A stretch of 46,068 bases of DNA from assembly GCA_020050835.1 (NCBI GenBank), contig JAGVKB010000060.1:1-46068 (forward strand). Reading direction: 5' to 3'. The notes beneath the pieces were generated by a model that was not told the DNA's origin, did not search any database, and saw only the letters and a list, made by a program, of their open reading frames with translations. Positions within the stretch are counted from its first letter, which is position 1, and the number at the start of each line of letters is the position of its first letter. This DNA is from Candidatus Obscuribacterales bacterium. GTDB taxonomy: Bacteria > Cyanobacteriota > Vampirovibrionia > Obscuribacterales > Obscuribacteraceae. A program made the position numbers and the translations under genes. Shown here piece after piece: positions 16,903 through 34,353 of this stretch.

Positions 16903-17886
16903 ATGGCAAAAGTCTTTTTGGAAAACGACGCTGACCTAGATCCGCTCTCACAATGTTCCATAGGCGTTATCGGTTACGGCAATCAGGGGCGCGCTCACGC
17001 ACTCAATCTCAGGGACAGCGGGCTGACTGTACAAGTCGGGACTAGAGACGGCAGCCGATCGCGCGAACAGTCGTTAAAGGACGGTTTTGCTGTTAACACA
17101 GTCGAAGCGGTGGCGAACAACTGCGAAGTGCTGGCGATCATGCTGCCTGACGAGGCAATTCCTCATGTTTATGCAGAGTCGATCGAGCCTTATCTCGAAG
17201 CGCATGATACTTTCGTATTCGCGCATGGATTCACGGTCTACCACAAAACAATCAGACTGCCGGATGATGCAGACATAGTGCTGGTTGCTCCGACCGGACC
17301 CGGACGCCAGGTGCGCTCGCTCTATCTGGAAGGGGCCGGATTACCAGCGCTGCTGGCAGTCGAACAGAACGCATCGGGCTTAGCTTGGAATCGCTGTCTT
17401 GCTTATGCAAGAGCGATCGGCTGCCTGCGCGCCGGTGGAATTGAAACAACGTTTTCCGAAGAGACTATTACCGATCTCTACTGCGAACAATCAGTCCTTT
17501 GTGGCGGTCTTCCGGAGCTCATAAAAGCTAGCTTCGACACTCTCGTCGAGAAAGGATATCAACCAGAACTCGCTTACATCTCTTGTTTGAAAGAAGTAAA
17601 ACTAATCGCCGACCTTCTCTTCGAAAGGGGAATCGACGGCATGAGAGAAGCAATTTCCAATACGGCGAAATACGGTTCGGCAATCAGCGGTCCAGAGCTG
17701 ATCAATTCTTCCACCAGACATCAATTGCGAAAACTACTCGACCGAATTGAATCGGGAAAGTTCGGTAAGCTCTTTCTAGATGAAGCAGCTGCCGGCTCGC
17801 CGACCATCAAAGACCTTTTGCGCTCAGAAAAACACTCTCAGATCGCTCGAGTCGGAAGGGAACTGCGAACCACTCTTGACTTCTAA
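16903..17886 (+). CDS. Ketol-acid reductoisomerase (IlvC) paralogue with altered active site
   Basis: A 327-residue class I KARI-like protein. The N-domain has GVIGYGNQGRAHALNLRDSG and the NADP loop GTRDGSRSREQSLKDG. The C-domain has FAHGF, ETTFSEETITDLYCEQSVLCGG, PELAYISCLKEVKLIADL and ISNTAKYGSAISGP. True KARIs convert acetolactate to dihydroxyisovalerate in branched-chain amino acid synthesis. Here the active-site lysine of APKGPG is Thr131, and the first metal-binding Glu of AYFE is Ser227. Asp191, Glu195, Glu231 and the active-site Ser are kept. Canonical Mg-dependent isomerase activity is doubtful, so this may be a repurposed reductase. There is no ilvB, ilvN or ilvD nearby; the neighbour is an opine-dehydrogenase-like gene. 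The ATG lies behind CAGGAGAAACA. Confidence 0.85.
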   Translation: MAKVFLENDADLDPLSQCSIGVIGYGNQGRAHALNLRDSGLTVQVGTRDGSRSREQSLKDGFAVNTVEAVANNCEVLAIMLPDEAIPHVYAESIEPYLEAHDTFVFAHGFTVYHKTIRLPDDADIVLVAPTGPGRQVRSLYLEGAGLPALLAVEQNASGLAWNRCLAYARAIGCLRAGGIETTFSEETITDLYCEQSVLCGGLPELIKASFDTLVEKGYQPELAYISCLKEVKLIADLLFERGIDGMREAISNTAKYGSAISGPELINSSTRHQLRKLLDRIESGKFGKLFLDEAAAGSPTIKDLLRSEKHSQIARVGRELRTTLDF

Positions 17887-21613: not shown

Positions 21614-22498
21614 TTAGCGCACAGGCAGGTTGTCGATCAATCTTACATCGCCAAATTTAGCGGCGACCAGAACGACAAACGGCCGATCGGCAGTGTCCAC
21701 AGGCTTGAGTGTATCGAGATCGCATGCTTCGAGGTATTGAAGTTTCACTCCCGGAAGTTTTGCTAAAGTCTGGCGGCCTTCTTCGAGAGCCTCCAAAATA
21801 GACACTTTGGCTGACTTCGCTCGCGCTTGAACCTGGCGCAAAGTCTCAAACAGAATCGGCGCCTGCTTGCGCTGCTCTGCAGTCAGATAAACATTCCTGG
21901 AGCTGAGCGCCAATCCATCCGGTTCTCTGACCGTCGGCACACCTACGACTTTCACGGCAGTATTGAGATCTTTTACCATTCGTTTGATCACTGCCAACTG
22001 CTGAAAGTCCTTTTCGCCGAAGTAGCCGACATCAGGCTGAACAAGCGAAAACAACTTGGTTACAACCGTCGCCACACCGGCGAAATGGCCGGGACGGAAC
22101 GACCCGCACAGGCGCTCGGTCAGTTCGGCCGGTGGAACAATGACTGTTGTACCCACACGTCCGGCTGGGTACATTTCGCTGTCGCTTGGGTGAAAGATCG
22201 CATGAACTCCAGCATCTCGACAGAGCTCAATATCAGATTGCAATGTTCTGGGATACTTCGCCAGATCTTCGGTCGGTCCGAACTGTAGTGGATTGACGAA
22301 GACGGAAACGATCACATTTTGGCACTCAACCTGCGCCTGTTTAACGAGCGACATATGTCCTTCATGCAACGCTCCCATCGTCGGCACAAGACCCAGTACC
22401 GGTTTCGCTCCGGAGGCGCAGTTAAAGGCGAGTTCGGCTCGCCAAGTCTTCAATTCACTAATCTTCGAGAAACATTCGATAGCAACCGCTGATTTCAC
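21614..22498 (-). CDS. panC: Pantothenate synthetase (pantoate-beta-alanine ligase)
   Basis: Catalyses the ATP-dependent condensation of pantoate with beta-alanine to pantothenate, the precursor of coenzyme A, in the cytoplasm. The HIGH-type motif PTMGALHEGH, VSVFVNPLQFGPTED, FRPGHFAGVATVVTKLF, GYFGEKDFQQL and the KMSKS-like VREPDGLALSSRN are all present. The length (294 residues) is normal. The GTG at 22498 follows CGGAGG by 6 nt; the frame also opens at a TTG at 22516, but that lies on the wrong side of the ribosome site. No panB or panD is adjacent. A CoaE-like fusion lies 8 kb away, but no link can be claimed. Confidence 0.95.
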   Translation of the reverse strand: MKSAVAIECFSKISELKTWRAELAFNCASGAKPVLGLVPTMGALHEGHMSLVKQAQVECQNVIVSVFVNPLQFGPTEDLAKYPRTLQSDIELCRDAGVHAIFHPSDSEMYPAGRVGTTVIVPPAELTERLCGSFRPGHFAGVATVVTKLFSLVQPDVGYFGEKDFQQLAVIKRMVKDLNTAVKVVGVPTVREPDGLALSSRNVYLTAEQRKQAPILFETLRQVQARAKSAKVSILEALEEGRQTLAKLPGVKLQYLEACDLDTLKPVDTADRPFVVLVAAKFGDVRLIDNLPVR

Positions 22499-23360
22499 CT
22501 TCAACCTCCGGGGCAATCCTTCCAGCCAGCTGAAAACTAGCGATCAGATTACCGTGACCAGCCGAAAAGTTCGACCCCTTTCCGGTAAAAATGAATGTTT
22601 TGCTGGGTAAATTGGGAGCTAGAGTATCTGGACGGACCACAAAACACAAGGGCGCCGATCGATTTGGTAGTTAATAAAACAGACAACTAAGCACGATAAG
22701 TCTTGGTCAACTGAAGCCCAAGCAACTTTCAAGCAAACAAATGGCGACCGGATCGACTGCTAAATGAGTAAGACCAGCCCCAGCTTGACAGCCCCAACCT
22801 GGCACACATTTTCTTCAATCTGCAAGGCAATTATGCTTTGGCTCTTCGATCAATGAGCATACCGGTACGCTCACGAGCTAGCGAGCTACGATCTCAACTC
22901 AGCATCTTCTCAGCTCGCCCCACGACTCAACTCTGTGCAATTTGCTCATTGTAGACACAAACAAGACTAGTACTTGATTTTAGAGAGACTTGTACAAGTT
23001 CGTTTTGCTGAGGACTTGCCAAGCCTATTCTCGCTACTCCTCATGCGGATTACGCAATTGGACGTATACAGTGTTTCCGCAGCAGTCAAACGATATCCCC
23101 ACAGACCTTCTTGAAAATATTTTCGACATACAACGATCGCCCCTTAGTTATACACCCTAGAGCCCCTTGGTGTATTCGGCGTGTATCCGCACTCTATCTA
23201 GCGTAGATCCAGATCTGCTCAGCGTTTCAAGCAACTCATGCCTTGCAAATCCTAGACCAGGCTGTTAACTTTGATGTGCCAAGCAAGACTGAAGCTTGGT
23301 AAGTCTGCCGGTAATGAACTACCGGAGGATTTGCCGGATAGTTAAACTTGAGGACGTCTT
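22499..23360. other. Intergenic region, about 860 bp, AT-richer
   Basis: No convincing gene on either strand. The part next to panC holds its promoter. A TACACC/GGTGTA inverted repeat is visible near 23150-23175, and a palindrome lies at 23308-23325. Base composition is more AT-rich than the flanks, as in the DUF3800 region that follows. Confidence 0.45.
23308..23325. promoter_or_regulatory. Inverted repeat upstream of the DUF3800 gene
   Basis: CCGGTAatgaacTACCGG is a perfect 6+6 inverted repeat 35 bp before the GTG start at 23361, a usual position for an operator or leader hairpin. A further CCGG pair follows (CCGGaggatttgCCGG). A repressor site is a guess. Confidence 0.35.
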
Positions 23361-28122: not shown

Positions 28123-28539
28123 TTAGCAGACAGCTTCCGGAGAGATTTGCACGACTTGAAATGGCAGGCTGCCTGAGTCTTCGCCTTCCAGAGCAAGCAC
28201 TATGTTGTACATTCCTTCTTCGCGAAAGGTAAGCCCGGTGAAAGCGCTGATGATTTTATGGGTCATATTCCGGTTTGGCAGAGGCTCGACCTTTGCAACG
28301 GGCGAGTTGGCGATGATCTGTCCCTGCCGATCGACAATCCGAAACTGATAACTAAATTCACTGTGAGACCCGGTCAGCTGCGCGAAAGCATAGACGAGCG
28401 GAATGACAGCAGGAAAGGTATGAACCGAGACGCCGTTGTGTATGTTGATGCAGGAGATGGCATCTCTGCGCAGAACATCTTGCAGCACTCTTTCGCAAAG
28501 AATGATTCCGATAACTTGTGGACGGTCGGATTTACTCAA
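28123..28539 (-). CDS. DUF6941-like protein
   Basis: A 138-residue protein: ERVLQDVLRRDAISCINIHNGVSVHTFPAVIPLVYAFAQLTG followed by a beta-sandwich-like half (FSYQFRIVDRQGQIIANSP, LTFREEGMYNIVLALEG). This matches DUF6941-type proteins of unknown function. The frame opens with TTG at 28539, 12 nt after AGGAGG. That spacing is long, but no ATG or GTG is better placed, so the start is uncertain. It converges on the protease-TPR gene with 140 bp between the stops. A cytoplasmic location is likely (no signal or membrane segment). Confidence 0.65.
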   Translation of the reverse strand: MSKSDRPQVIGIILCERVLQDVLRRDAISCINIHNGVSVHTFPAVIPLVYAFAQLTGSHSEFSYQFRIVDRQGQIIANSPVAKVEPLPNRNMTHKIISAFTGLTFREEGMYNIVLALEGEDSGSLPFQVVQISPEAVC

Positions 28540-28813: not shown

Positions 28814-29002
28814 ACGGACAGGCAATTTGAAGCCTTGATTTAAGCAGCGGTAGCGCGCGGCCGGTCGACATTTTTGCACTGCAGCGACACAGCGTGCAGC
28901 CCTGGCAACCGTTTCGACAATCGCAGATAAAAAATCTGCTTATCACTCCAATCCTCTGGGAATAGAATGGATGTAGTGGGCGCCTTGTAAGTGAGTTGGG
29001 TT

Positions 29003-29716
29003 ATGGCTAAGAATCCAAAGGACGAAGAATGGGCATGGTCTGGGAGGGAATCACCCTTTCAGCGCAAGCTTGCCAATCTACGCAGCGACGCCTATTCGGG
29101 CGGCGCCACACCGGGGCGAACAGCACCGACCAATCAGCATCAGACCCACTCGATAGACCCAAGCGCCTTATTGCGTGACACTCAACAGAGCCTGGCTCAG
29201 ACCAGACCGGAAGACCTCGAAGCGCAGGCCTTGCTAGACTCTCAAACCGGTCTCCTCAACTCTCGGCAGTTTCTCAAGAAACTGGAATACGAGCTGAAGC
29301 GCGGGATGCGTTACAAACGCCCGGTGGCTTTATGCATGATTTCAGTGGACGGCACGAAAGAAGTGAAGAAGATGTACGGAGCACCGACCGGAGAGAAATT
29401 GGTAAAGCTGGCGGCAGATGCGATCCTTGGATCGGTGAGAGATGTTGACTATGCAGCTCGCTATTCAGCCGAAGTGTTGGCCATTATCTTTCCGGAAACC
29501 AATTCCAACGGCGTCAAGGTTCCCGCTGAACGTATTCGTCAGAAGATTCGCAATCAAGTGACCGATATTGGCGGCGAAGCCGTTTACATTACAGCAAGTC
29601 TAGGCTGTGCTTCCTTTCCGGCTCACGCTCGAGAACCCAACGAACTGATTACCAAGGCGATTTTAGCTCTGGAAACCGGCACACAACGGGGCGGCGACGT
29701 CGTAATCATCTCCTGA
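29003..29716 (+). CDS. Degenerate GGDEF-domain protein
   Basis: 237 residues (ATG 29003; a GTG at 28991 is an alternative). The first 75 residues are polar and probably disordered. The GGDEF fold begins at LDSQTGLLNSRQFLKKLEYELKRGMRYKRPVALCMISVDG and continues to DYAARYSAEVLAIIFPETN and ITASLGCASFPAHAREPNELITKA. The signature GG(D/E)EF is replaced by SAEVL at residues 155-159, so cyclic-di-GMP synthesis is not expected. It may bind GTP or act as a scaffold or signal receptor. No sensor domain or membrane segment precedes it. Confidence 0.82.
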   Translation: MAKNPKDEEWAWSGRESPFQRKLANLRSDAYSGGATPGRTAPTNQHQTHSIDPSALLRDTQQSLAQTRPEDLEAQALLDSQTGLLNSRQFLKKLEYELKRGMRYKRPVALCMISVDGTKEVKKMYGAPTGEKLVKLAADAILGSVRDVDYAARYSAEVLAIIFPETNSNGVKVPAERIRQKIRNQVTDIGGEAVYITASLGCASFPAHAREPNELITKAILALETGTQRGGDVVIIS

Positions 29717-30424: not shown

Positions 30425-32410
30425 ATGAACGAGACAAAGTCTTCAGCCCGAGCCGGGCTGACAGAGGCGGGCGCCCCCGGGCGGCCCTATGTCCTCGGCA
30501 TTACAGGCAGCATCGCCTGCGGAAAGGGTTTGATTGCGGATTGCGCGCGAGCGGCTGGGATCCCGGTGGAAGACACCGACAAGATCTCTCACTCGTTGCT
30601 CGACACGCCAAGCTCCGATCCCAACTCGGCTTACCAGAAGGTAATCCAACGATTCGGTTCTGATCTCGTCGATGCCCACACCGGCAAGATCGACCGCAGC
30701 AAATTGCGGAAAGCCGCTTTTGCAGATGCTCAGAGCAAGGCGGACCTGGAGGCGATCCTGCATCCAGCCATCCTTGTCCTCACCGAAGAACTTCTCCGGA
30801 AGCACGCAGCGGCCGGGCAGGCAATCGTTGCGGTCGAGATGCCGCTGCTCCATGAATCGAACCTCGAGTCGATGTTCGATGAGATCTGGGCGGTCGTCTC
30901 TTCGCTCGCGGTGCAGGTCAAGCGCCTGATGGAACGCGACGAAGTCTCGGAGCAGGAGGCGCTTTTCCGCATCGGCAAACTGTGGCCGCAGAAGGCGAAA
31001 GCCGCTCTGTCCCATCGCAAGATCGACAACTCCGGCACCAAGGAGGAGACCGGCAAGCAGGTAGAACACTGCATCGCGCTTGCCCGGGCTTCGCAGAAGG
31101 AGAGTCGTCTGATCATCTGCGAAGACGACCACTGTCAGTGCTGCGTCACTCCGCTTGCTCTGGCCGTCGCCAATCAGCCGACTGGCACGCCGGGCGCAGA
31201 GCGGAAGTCGCGCAACGAGCAATATCGCGATCTGCTCAGGCGTGGAGCGGCTCTGGCCACCGACGATGCTCTGGACAAGATGGGAGACATCGCGACGACT
31301 TGCCATAAGCAAGCCGACGCGCATGTCGCCATCGAAGCCACCGCGGACAAAGTCGGACCGGACGGCTCCAAGTCGCTGGCCGGCAGCGAGCTGCTCGTGC
31401 GAGTGCTCATGTCGGTTAAGAACAGCGGCGACAATTGCCACTCACCGCCACCCGGTGACTGCAGCTGCGGTTGCGGCAAGACCTGCCGAGTTGCTTGCGC
31501 CTGCCAACCCGACTGTGGTTGCAAGTGCACGCCGCCGCCACCACCGCCGCCGCCACCTCCTCCACCACCTCCGCCGCCTCCTCCACCACCTCCGCCGCCT
31601 CCTCCACCGCCGCCACCTCCTCCACCGCCACCTCCTCCGCGCCGGTCGAGCGAGTGGTGGCTCGGTTTGATCACACTGCTCCTCGGCGTTGTGGTCGCTC
31701 TGCTGTTGGTCGGAGGAGCCACAGCGCTCTGGTGGTACCAGCCCTGGGTGAAGAAGCCGTGTCCGCCACCGGTGGTGGTGAACCCTGATCCACCCGGACC
31801 GGTCAAGCCGCCGGTTGTACCGCCAGTGTTAGTACCACCGGTAGTGCCGTCCGGCACTTTCCCTCCGCCTGCGGATCCCTGCCCGACCGGAACGGTGCGG
31901 TCGGGCGACGCTCCTAAATTTACCCTGCCTTACCTGCACAACCAGGTTCGGCAGAGAGCAACGGAGTATGTCGTAACCTACCTGCCTGATTGCCAGGGAG
32001 CGACGCTCGAATGCTGGTATCAGGACAGCAGCGGCACCAGACTGTTGCTGAACAGGCAGGAGTATGGTCCCAACCTGGCATTCAGCCAGCAATGGATCAT
32101 CACCTACTCTCAGTTCGGCAATTACGTCTGGGTCGACCAGTTCAAGGCTCCCAACCTGTTTGTCAGTCGCTTCGTCTACGAGTACGACAGCGCCGGCAAG
32201 ACGATTCGGTTGCGGCGTCTCGACGGTTATCAGCGCATGCTGACCAGAGTGACGGTGGCAGGCGGCTCTGATCCGGGCGCCGGACAGGTCGTCACTCTCG
32301 AGCGGTTCAACCAGTTCGGCGTTGCAATCGAAGTGCGTCGGCTGAGTTCGCTCGACGACTCTGCAGTGATAAGCGAGTTCTACATGTTCGACCGGTTTGG
32401 GCGGAAGTAA
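30425..32410 (+). CDS. CoaE-like kinase fused to Cys-rich segment, 36-Pro tract, TM helix and outer domain
   Basis: 661 residues from the ATG at 30425 behind AAAGGAA. Residues about 20-225 follow dephospho-CoA kinase along most of its length: GITGSIACGKG P-loop region, VEDTDKIS, FGSDLVDAHTGKIDRSKL, EAILHPAI, VAVEMPLLHESNLE, KIDNSGTKEETGKQ. The P-loop ends Gly-Lys-Gly instead of Gly-Lys-Ser/Thr, so ATP binding or phosphotransfer is doubtful. About residues 225-345 form an unrecognised helical region. A Cys-rich stretch follows (CSCGCGKTC, CACQPDCGCKC), then exactly 36 prolines (residues 370-405), one membrane helix (WWLGLITLLLGVVVALLLVGG) and a Pro-rich linker. The last ~140 residues form a beta-rich outer domain with FDRFG-type repeats. 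Orientation N-in/C-out is inferred. PPK2 lies downstream. Confidence 0.85.
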   Translation: MNETKSSARAGLTEAGAPGRPYVLGITGSIACGKGLIADCARAAGIPVEDTDKISHSLLDTPSSDPNSAYQKVIQRFGSDLVDAHTGKIDRSKLRKAAFADAQSKADLEAILHPAILVLTEELLRKHAAAGQAIVAVEMPLLHESNLESMFDEIWAVVSSLAVQVKRLMERDEVSEQEALFRIGKLWPQKAKAALSHRKIDNSGTKEETGKQVEHCIALARASQKESRLIICEDDHCQCCVTPLALAVANQPTGTPGAERKSRNEQYRDLLRRGAALATDDALDKMGDIATTCHKQADAHVAIEATADKVGPDGSKSLAGSELLVRVLMSVKNSGDNCHSPPPGDCSCGCGKTCRVACACQPDCGCKCTPPPPPPPPPPPPPPPPPPPPPPPPPPPPPPPPPPPPRRSSEWWLGLITLLLGVVVALLLVGGATALWWYQPWVKKPCPPPVVVNPDPPGPVKPPVVPPVLVPPVVPSGTFPPPADPCPTGTVRSGDAPKFTLPYLHNQVRQRATEYVVTYLPDCQGATLECWYQDSSGTRLLLNRQEYGPNLAFSQQWIITYSQFGNYVWVDQFKAPNLFVSRFVYEYDSAGKTIRLRRLDGYQRMLTRVTVAGGSDPGAGQVVTLERFNQFGVAIEVRRLSSLDDSAVISEFYMFDRFGRK

Positions 32411-32468: not shown

Positions 32469-32509
32469 TCGTTACGTTCATGACCACAACTTCAAAGGAA
32501 AAGGACAAC

Positions 32510-33808
32510 ATGTCAGACAAGAAATTCAGGAAAGCCGAAGCAGGCAAAGACTATCAGCGCCTCGACAACGGCGTCGTCTTCGTCCGCCGCCAGTTCGACA
32601 ATCTGCTCGTCCCGTACCAGGAAGAGCAGATCCCCGACATCCTCGGCGCGGTCGATCACGGGCAGCGCATCGCCAGCACCAAGGTCTACGAGAAGATGGA
32701 AGCGCGCCAGCAGCTCGAATTCAACGCGCTCGTCCGGCTCCTGGAAGGAGCCAAACTCTCGGTGATCTTCGCCTTCCAGGGTTGGAACGGTGCCGGCAAG
32801 AGCGGCGCCATCACGCGCCTGGTGGGTGCCACCGGACACGATCCCAAGATCATCAAGTGGATCCCGATCGGCCCGCCCACCGACGACGACAAGAAGCACG
32901 ATCACCTCTGGCGCTTCTACGACAACGACCGGATGCCGCGCGTCGGTCAGGTCAGCTGCTTCGACCGCAGCTGGTTCGAGCGGCTGATGATCGAGAAGGT
33001 CGAAGAGCTGACCGACGGCAAGCTGATTCGCCGGTCCTACGAGGAGATTCGCTCCTTCCAACAGGGGCTTTCCAGCCGCGGCGCCATCATGATCAACATC
33101 TGGATGGACGTCACGCAGAAGAAGCAGCTGAAGCGCCTGGAAAAGCGCCTCAAGAGCAACCCCTGGAAATGGAATCCGGCCGACATGGAGGAGCGGAAGC
33201 ACGTCGCCGAGTATCGGAACGCCATCAACGAGATGTTCTACCGAACCGGCACCCAGTTCGCCCCCTGGCACGTCATCTCGAGCGAGAGCAAGAAGTACAG
33301 TCGAGTGACTGTCCTGCAGGTGGCCAACCAGGCGATCATCGAACGGCTGCGCGACGAACTCGGCGAACCGGAGCTGGTCAAGCGCCTCGTCGAGCTGCTC
33401 GGGCAGATCATGAGCGCCAAGCGGCTGATCAAAGTCATGCGCCGGCTGCTCGGTCGCATCATGACTCAGGAGAAGATCAGCGAGTCGCTCACCGAGAAGA
33501 AGCTGCGCGAAGTCCTCGGCGACAAGCTGCTCCGCAAGATCTTGCAAGGCAAGAAGCTCGAGAACGTGATCGCCGAAATCGACAAGGAAGAGCGCGAGAA
33601 GCGCGAGAGACAGCGCGAACGCGACAAGCTCCGCTGCCAGAAGCAGACCGCCGAAACCCAGGAGAACGACAAGCTCCGCCAGGTTCTCGGCGACGAGCTG
33701 GTGAGCGCGATCGCGTCTGGCACCAAGCTGAAGAAGATCGCGGACAAGCTCAAGAAACGGGCCAAGCAGGAGAAGAAGCGCCGGCAGGAAGCCAGCGAAA
33801 AGAGCTGA
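32510..33808 (+). CDS. Polyphosphate kinase 2 family protein with repeated C-terminal extension
   Basis: PPK2 enzymes move phosphate between polyphosphate and nucleotides. The core is clear: IFAFQGWNGAGKSGAITRL (Walker A near residue 91), IKWIPIGPPTDDD, CFDRSWFERLMIEKV (Walker B/lid area), NPWKWNPADMEER and APWHVISSESKKYSRV. PPK2 proteins are typically 230-300 residues; here about 150 extra residues follow. They contain two copies of a KLR-x-VLGD-x-L helix motif (near residues 330-357 and 386-413) separated by a highly charged Arg/Glu/Lys helix. The extension may mediate oligomerisation or nucleic-acid/polyphosphate binding. The ATG at 32510 follows AAAGGACAAC; an upstream ATG at 32480 is less well placed. 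Codons are strongly G/C-ending, and both long antisense and shifted frames are shadows. Confidence 0.86.
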   Translation: MSDKKFRKAEAGKDYQRLDNGVVFVRRQFDNLLVPYQEEQIPDILGAVDHGQRIASTKVYEKMEARQQLEFNALVRLLEGAKLSVIFAFQGWNGAGKSGAITRLVGATGHDPKIIKWIPIGPPTDDDKKHDHLWRFYDNDRMPRVGQVSCFDRSWFERLMIEKVEELTDGKLIRRSYEEIRSFQQGLSSRGAIMINIWMDVTQKKQLKRLEKRLKSNPWKWNPADMEERKHVAEYRNAINEMFYRTGTQFAPWHVISSESKKYSRVTVLQVANQAIIERLRDELGEPELVKRLVELLGQIMSAKRLIKVMRRLLGRIMTQEKISESLTEKKLREVLGDKLLRKILQGKKLENVIAEIDKEEREKRERQRERDKLRCQKQTAETQENDKLRQVLGDELVSAIASGTKLKKIADKLKKRAKQEKKRRQEASEKS

Positions 33809-33894: not shown

Positions 33895-34353
33895 ATGAAT
33901 AGCGCCACCGCCACTGCCAGGCCGGGAAGCCCATACCAGCTGGAAATCGCGGCACGCGGACACCTGATCGTGTCCGATGTGCCGCTCAAGCTGGGCGGCA
34001 AAAACACCGGCATGACCCCCCACGAGATGTTTCTCGGCGGCATCGCCGGTTGCATCGCTGACACCCTCTGGATGCACGCCGTGCTGAAGAGCTGGGATCT
34101 CCAGGAGCTCTCGGTTACGATCACGGAAACGCTGGTCGACGACCCGAATCAACCAGGACAGAAGATTCCGCGTCTCGACGAGCAGATCCAGACCAAAGGC
34201 AACCTTGCTCCAAACCAGGTTCAAAGACTGCTTGCCCTGGCGCCGAAATGCCCGGTACACAAGCTCTTTACTGGCAACAAGCTGGTCAACACCACCATCT
34301 CGCACGTGCCACCAGCGGCTACTCCAGGCGTGCCGGCCGGGCAGCAGCCGTAA
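33895..34353 (+). CDS. OsmC-family thiol peroxidase
   Basis: A 152-residue OsmC/Ohr-like protein. The two peroxidatic/resolving cysteines are in GGIAGCIADTLWM (Cys53) and LAPKCPVHKLF (Cys119). The lead-in GGKNTGMTPHEMFLGG matches the family signature. Such enzymes reduce organic hydroperoxides using two Cys in an intertwined dimer. The ATG at 33895 is preceded by GGAGG inside a hairpin. It lies about 90 bp downstream of PPK2 and probably follows its transcription; no transcriptional regulator is next to it. Cytoplasmic. Confidence 0.85.
   Translation: MNSATATARPGSPYQLEIAARGHLIVSDVPLKLGGKNTGMTPHEMFLGGIAGCIADTLWMHAVLKSWDLQELSVTITETLVDDPNQPGQKIPRLDEQIQTKGNLAPNQVQRLLALAPKCPVHKLFTGNKLVNTTISHVPPAATPGVPAGQQP

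Follow-up and report, generated by a model that had tools for sequence, protein, structure and literature searches.

A dephospho-CoA kinase paralogue joined to a membrane helix and a predicted outer beta-meander domain in Obscuribacterales

Introduction

The closest described relatives of the protein studied here are the dephospho-CoA kinases (CoaE; Pfam PF01121, NCBIfam TIGR00152), and in the Mycobacterium tuberculosis enzyme Lys14, Asp32 and Arg140 have been shown to be important (PMC3019153). Mycobacteria also have a CoaE-UPF0157 (GrpB) fusion, in which an N-terminal CoaE carries an extra C-terminal domain and UPF0157 aids folding (PMC2765170). Human COASY is a bifunctional CoaD-CoaE protein whose N-terminal part reportedly directs it to the outer membrane of mitochondria (PMC2765170, PMC10054636).

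We analysed a window of 46,068 nucleotides, from a non-photosynthetic relative of the cyanobacteria, that encodes a protein comparable to all three. Its first domain matches CoaE nearly end to end and has K34, D52, R171 and the HP, PLL and DNSG motifs; it differs in being a distinct paralogue (CoaE2) fused to a middle domain, a stalk, a transmembrane (TM) helix and a C-terminal domain (CTD), and in having Gly35 in the query lineage. Like the mycobacterial fusion, it has CoaE at the N terminus with an added C-terminal domain, but no TM helix or outer domain is described in the mycobacterial protein. Pfam gave no UPF0157/GrpB match in the query, and the NCBIfam model PRK03333 reached 95 bits against a cut-off of 215, spanning the CoaE part only. 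Both COASY and our protein, the latter by prediction, have a membrane-held dephospho-CoA kinase domain that faces the cytosol, whereas COASY is bifunctional, has another anchor and has no outer domain. Our searches returned no membrane-spanning CoaE fusion outside this Obscuribacterales family, and we found no published description of one in the open-access literature; the architecture is apparently undescribed so far. The novelty of domain order proposed in the initial annotation is upheld, no Pfam family covering the middle or the C-terminal part.

Results

Architecture of the fusion gene

The coordinates of the fusion gene, its parts and its neighbours are collected in Table 1. From N to C terminus the protein consists of a near-complete CoaE, a small helix-hairpin domain, a cysteine cluster, the proline run, one TM helix and a C-terminal beta domain, which confirms the order first read from this DNA. 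AAAGGA sits just 5' of the ATG at 30425; a longer alternative would start at GTG 30356, from which the frame is likewise open.

Table 1. Features of the fusion gene and its surroundings in the window
Feature	Position	Strand	Remark
IlvC ketol-acid reductoisomerase	16903..17886	+	
PanC pantoate-beta-alanine ligase	21614..22516	-	
DUF6941	28123..28539	-	conserved locus marker
GGDEF protein	28991..29716	+	beside the fusion only in query and G017
Whole fusion gene, 661 aa	30425..32410	+	one open frame
CoaE2 domain, dephospho-CoA kinase fold, residues 22-206	30488..31042	+	Pfam PF01121 5e-36
P-loop GSIACGKG, Gly35 for Ser/Thr	30506..30529	+	
Middle domain, helix and beta-hairpin	31199..31426	+	found only within the fusion's Obscuribacterales family
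Cys cluster CxCxC...CxCxxxCxCxC, CSCGCGKTCRVACACQPDCGCKC	31460..31528	+	
Run of exactly 36 Pro codons, mixed CCN	31532..31639	+	
Single transmembrane helix, residues 412-437	31658..31735	+	
CTD, C-terminal beta-meander domain, predicted extra-membrane	31892..32407	+	AlphaFold2 pLDDT 95.3
PPK2 polyphosphate kinase-like gene	32480..33808	+	70 bases downstream of fusion
Small protein, presumably OsmC-like	33895..34353	+	

A full-length AlphaFold2 model built from 18 sequences gave a confident CoaE fold, a disordered stalk, the membrane helix and the beta domain; the middle domain was modelled with medium confidence as a helix (256-286) followed by a beta-hairpin (294-332). Nothing reliable was found for the middle domain among Pfam or PDB entries, and its profile matched only proteins that also bear the TM helix and CTD, in 20 of 53 genomes of the order (in G072 the halves lie on separate contigs). 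The cysteine cluster is missing from about half of the relatives, and none of the separate small Cys-rich proteins checked among weak matches had its motif. A PADLOC search for a defence system gave no match and this interpretation was dropped.

Distribution of the fusion

Relatives were collected from the same order by protein search and a CTD profile, and a genome was counted when a single open frame contained CoaE, TM helix and CTD. Intact fusions were found in 18 genomes of Obscuribacterales (Ca. Melainabacteria), mostly at the same chromosomal place (G000, G001, G004, G007, G009, G010, G012, G017, G018, G022, G025, G027, G030, G035, G064, G069, G070 and G071; G numbers denote compared genomes, G000 being the query genome, to which the window belongs, and C numbers denote contigs). 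The relatives belong to Ca. Obscuribacterales and Melainabacteria, including Ca. Obscuribacter phosphatis. Since 18 genomes share the domain order in one frame, the arrangement is beyond chance and no frame error; the architecture is real and family-wide.

Three further genomes (G023, G032 and G072) apparently have the same gene split by contig ends. These breaks within the gene could be cited as signs that assembly or reading frame went wrong at the proline tract, an explanation we regard as extremely improbable: the 18 intact copies come from independent assemblies and keep the frame across many differing linker sequences, which rules the artefact out. The frame error or misjoin that the initial annotation had considered was thus not found. 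It had also raised the prospect of relatives in which the region forms two separate genes, and one does exist: the locus of G021 retains only the TM helix and half of the CTD, with CoaE2 as a separate gene elsewhere, but this indicates modularity and not an artefact. At the same locus G014 has the middle domain, TM helix and CTD with no CoaE part, so that the kinase is dispensable there.

Other long CoaE frames occur in the phylum. Four were checked among the matches listed: one is a fusion of another kind, and the remaining three look like extensions of the open frame. Elsewhere in the phylum, one genome has CoaE in frame with a periplasmic-binding-like domain (L228:766, minus strand).

The longest proline run varies from 2 to 36 among the fusion proteins compared, and further members also have long runs. 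The query genome encodes large, repetitive and probably secreted proteins, L208, L209, L210 and L211, with 42, 32, 39 and 20 consecutive prolines, respectively. Ribosomes that stall on runs of proline are rescued by EF-P (PMC6023141), and an EF-P gene is present in the query genome. Given these other tracts and EF-P, the earlier suggestion that the tract should stall ribosomes unless EF-P works well is a weak argument, and we no longer treat poly-proline as an exceptional feature.

CoaE2 as a separate lineage

The CoaE part matches PF01121 over profile positions 1-178 of 180 with 124 bits (cut-off 27) and TIGR00152 with 126 bits (cut-off 65.55), the two together assigning residues 22-214 to the dephospho-CoA kinase family. 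A second, housekeeping coaE, which the initial annotation had proposed looking for, stands alone on contig C84 of the query genome, and most fused genomes also carry one. The fused copy is the sole CoaE match in G001 and G009, both incomplete drafts (89% and 92%) in which the absence may be an assembly gap.

When CoaE domains were placed in a tree, the stand-alone copies from these genomes grouped as one clade (support 100/99), with the fused copies outside it. Forcing the fused copies into one clade raised the likelihood, and this single clade was not rejected (AU p 0.65). The stand-alone CoaE2 of G021 and G031 and the CoaE2 of G015 fell near the fused clade, not clearly inside. By its sequence, then, the CoaE part is a paralogue distinct from housekeeping coaE, and duplication followed by one fusion would be the simplest account, with the exact branching left loose by the tree. 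In G015, a fumarase/aspartase-like C-terminus lies in frame with CoaE2 with a GKN P-loop, at a contig edge where the start is missing (L178:2185-3378, minus strand). Stand-alone CoaE matches are split near profile position 60 in G004, G025, G027, G035 and G060-G062, which suggests an insertion in those genera.

Catalytic residues and selection

K34, D52 and R171 were invariant in all 20 fused domains aligned; we equate them with Lys14, Asp32 and probably Arg140 of the mycobacterial enzyme by motif position, not by superposition of structures. The glycine noted earlier after the P-loop lysine is confirmed in the query, whose GSIACGKG departs from the Walker A pattern GxxxxGK[S/T]. GKS is kept in 18/20 fused domains; Gly35 is confined to the query and its sister genus G017, and the G015 relative has Asn at this position. 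Several conserved positions are lost in G007; almost every fused copy retains its catalytic sites. In P-loop enzymes this Ser normally coordinates Mg2+, and its loss probably lowers or alters activity in the query lineage.

Pairwise dN/dS, obtained with our own Nei-Gojobori script, was 0.09-0.13 for CoaE2 versus 0.11-0.12 for stand-alone coaE (two pairs; a third stand-alone pair was saturated and excluded). The retained Lys, Asp and Arg, together with dN/dS values like those of coaE, point to a functional CoaE2 domain in most members, the query itself being left undecided.

These data bear on the initial proposal of a sensor or pseudokinase, which can be framed as a catalytically silent CoaE fold that would bind CoA, dephospho-CoA or a nucleotide and signal across the membrane. 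The P-loop substitutions in the query, G017 and the G015 relative, the further losses in G007 and the separate housekeeping coaE of most genomes fit such a sensor, but the prevalence of GKS, the near-complete retention of the other conserved sites and selection resembling that on an active enzyme leave it unsupported as a general reading, and we judge it fairly unlikely; a sensor role is conceivable, and a pseudokinase state is possible above all in the query and G017. We consider it quite unlikely that CoaE2 is an active kinase near the membrane with an altered acceptor substrate: the ancient duplication, the long separation from housekeeping coaE and the retained phosphotransfer residues would suit this, but the PLL motif and adjoining acceptor-side positions are kept and there is no candidate substrate.

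Membrane topology

The hydropathy profiles of the members examined each have a single strong membrane segment and, in five cases, additional weak peaks; none shows a strongly hydrophobic N-terminus. The tethering to the envelope proposed at the outset is supported. Lys and Arg are commoner before the helix than after it in 16/22 proteins, the rest being tied or reversed; the bias is weak in some members, and the query is itself tied (2 vs 2). This excess makes an N-in/C-out orientation likely for the family.

The C-terminal domain and its J-domain relatives

The CTD (last 172 residues), modelled alone, formed an open beta-meander. It has no Pfam family; RHS_repeat gave a weak match in 1/25 CTD members (E 0.0026). 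Foldseek and VIA-align returned look-alikes including 3msw (Z 9.8), Rhs proteins (Z about 6-8), OspA (Z 6-7) and teneurin, with low TM-scores of 0.2-0.5. The CTD thus resembles RHS/YD-repeat and OspA-type open beta-meanders in overall arrangement but has no sequence family in common with them, and since middling structure scores are common we claim for the model only this general arrangement, not membership.

When 339 genomes of the phylum were scanned with a CTD profile, the only matches beyond the query genome were weak stray ones in 2/338; other members of the order lay outside this sample. The CTD was also found behind J-domains: in G034 and G068 a J-domain with HPD is followed by a charged helical region, a TM helix and the CTD (L043:1363-2847 and L073:1294-2592), one such protein occurs in G017, and the query genome has two J-domain-like/TM/CTD paralogues on contigs C104 (L181:5959-6957) and C146 (L182:221-1219), whose J-domains are degenerate, HPD apparently being lost (ADE or ADD). 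As it is joined to CoaE2 or to J-domains, the CTD is, as far as sequence tells, a module combined with differing cytoplasmic parts.

A further possibility is that the work is done by the outer domain and its anchor, and that CoaE2 plays no part in metabolism but is a passenger or serves for docking. G014 and G021, with no CoaE part at the locus, and the J-domain proteins agree with this; however, purifying selection on CoaE2 is at least as strong as on the rest of the protein in 3/4 pairs and stronger than on the linker in 4/4, and we find the explanation unlikely.

Gene neighbourhood

The fusion gene is placed between DUF6941 and the PPK2-like gene, with PanC and IlvC upstream. PPK2 directly follows the fusion on the same strand at 18/21 fusion loci; in the window its product has a long charged C-terminal extension past the PPK2 domain. 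The order PanC-protease-DUF6941-PPK2-OsmC-MFS is also seen in fusion-less genomes: an MFS-like gene occupies the place of the fusion in G006, G011, G016 and G019, and in G026 and G034 PPK2 follows with neither the fusion nor the MFS-like gene. The neighbourhood is thus mostly inherited synteny; we dropped a functional link to PPK2 or PanC-IlvC, and a link to the pantothenate genes is suggestive at most.

Discussion

We tentatively favour, at somewhat less than even confidence, a single-pass inner-membrane protein with CoaE2 in the cytoplasm, probably active in most relatives, a Cys/Pro stalk and the beta-meander outside. The order and conservation of the parts, the single TM helix, the distinct CoaE2 lineage, the kept catalytic residues and the purifying selection are read from the sequences; the function we infer. 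The preference is due to the 18 fusions in one open frame, the fused clade lying outside the stand-alone one, the retained K34, D52 and R171, the dN/dS values, the fused copy being the sole CoaE match in G001 and G009, the one TM helix with more Lys and Arg before it in most proteins, and the confidently folded, reusable CTD; it is weakened by the draft state of G001 and G009, the query's lack of the P-loop Ser, the losses in G007, the absence of CoaE from G014 and the weak charge bias. In an N-in/C-out protein, CoaE2 would be held on the cytoplasmic face and the beta-meander on the outer face; in most relatives CoaE2 may still phosphorylate dephospho-CoA, and the outer domain might place or control it by binding an envelope partner.

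A broader proposal, conceivable and in our view doubtful, is that the outer beta-meander and TM helix form a mix-and-match receptor for a CoA kinase or a J-domain, through which the state of the envelope would control CoA synthesis or chaperone recruitment.

Two uncharacterised domains, the CTD and the middle domain, would each define a new family. If CoaE2 is active, the last step of CoA synthesis would take place at a bacterial membrane, in parallel to the membrane-held human COASY.
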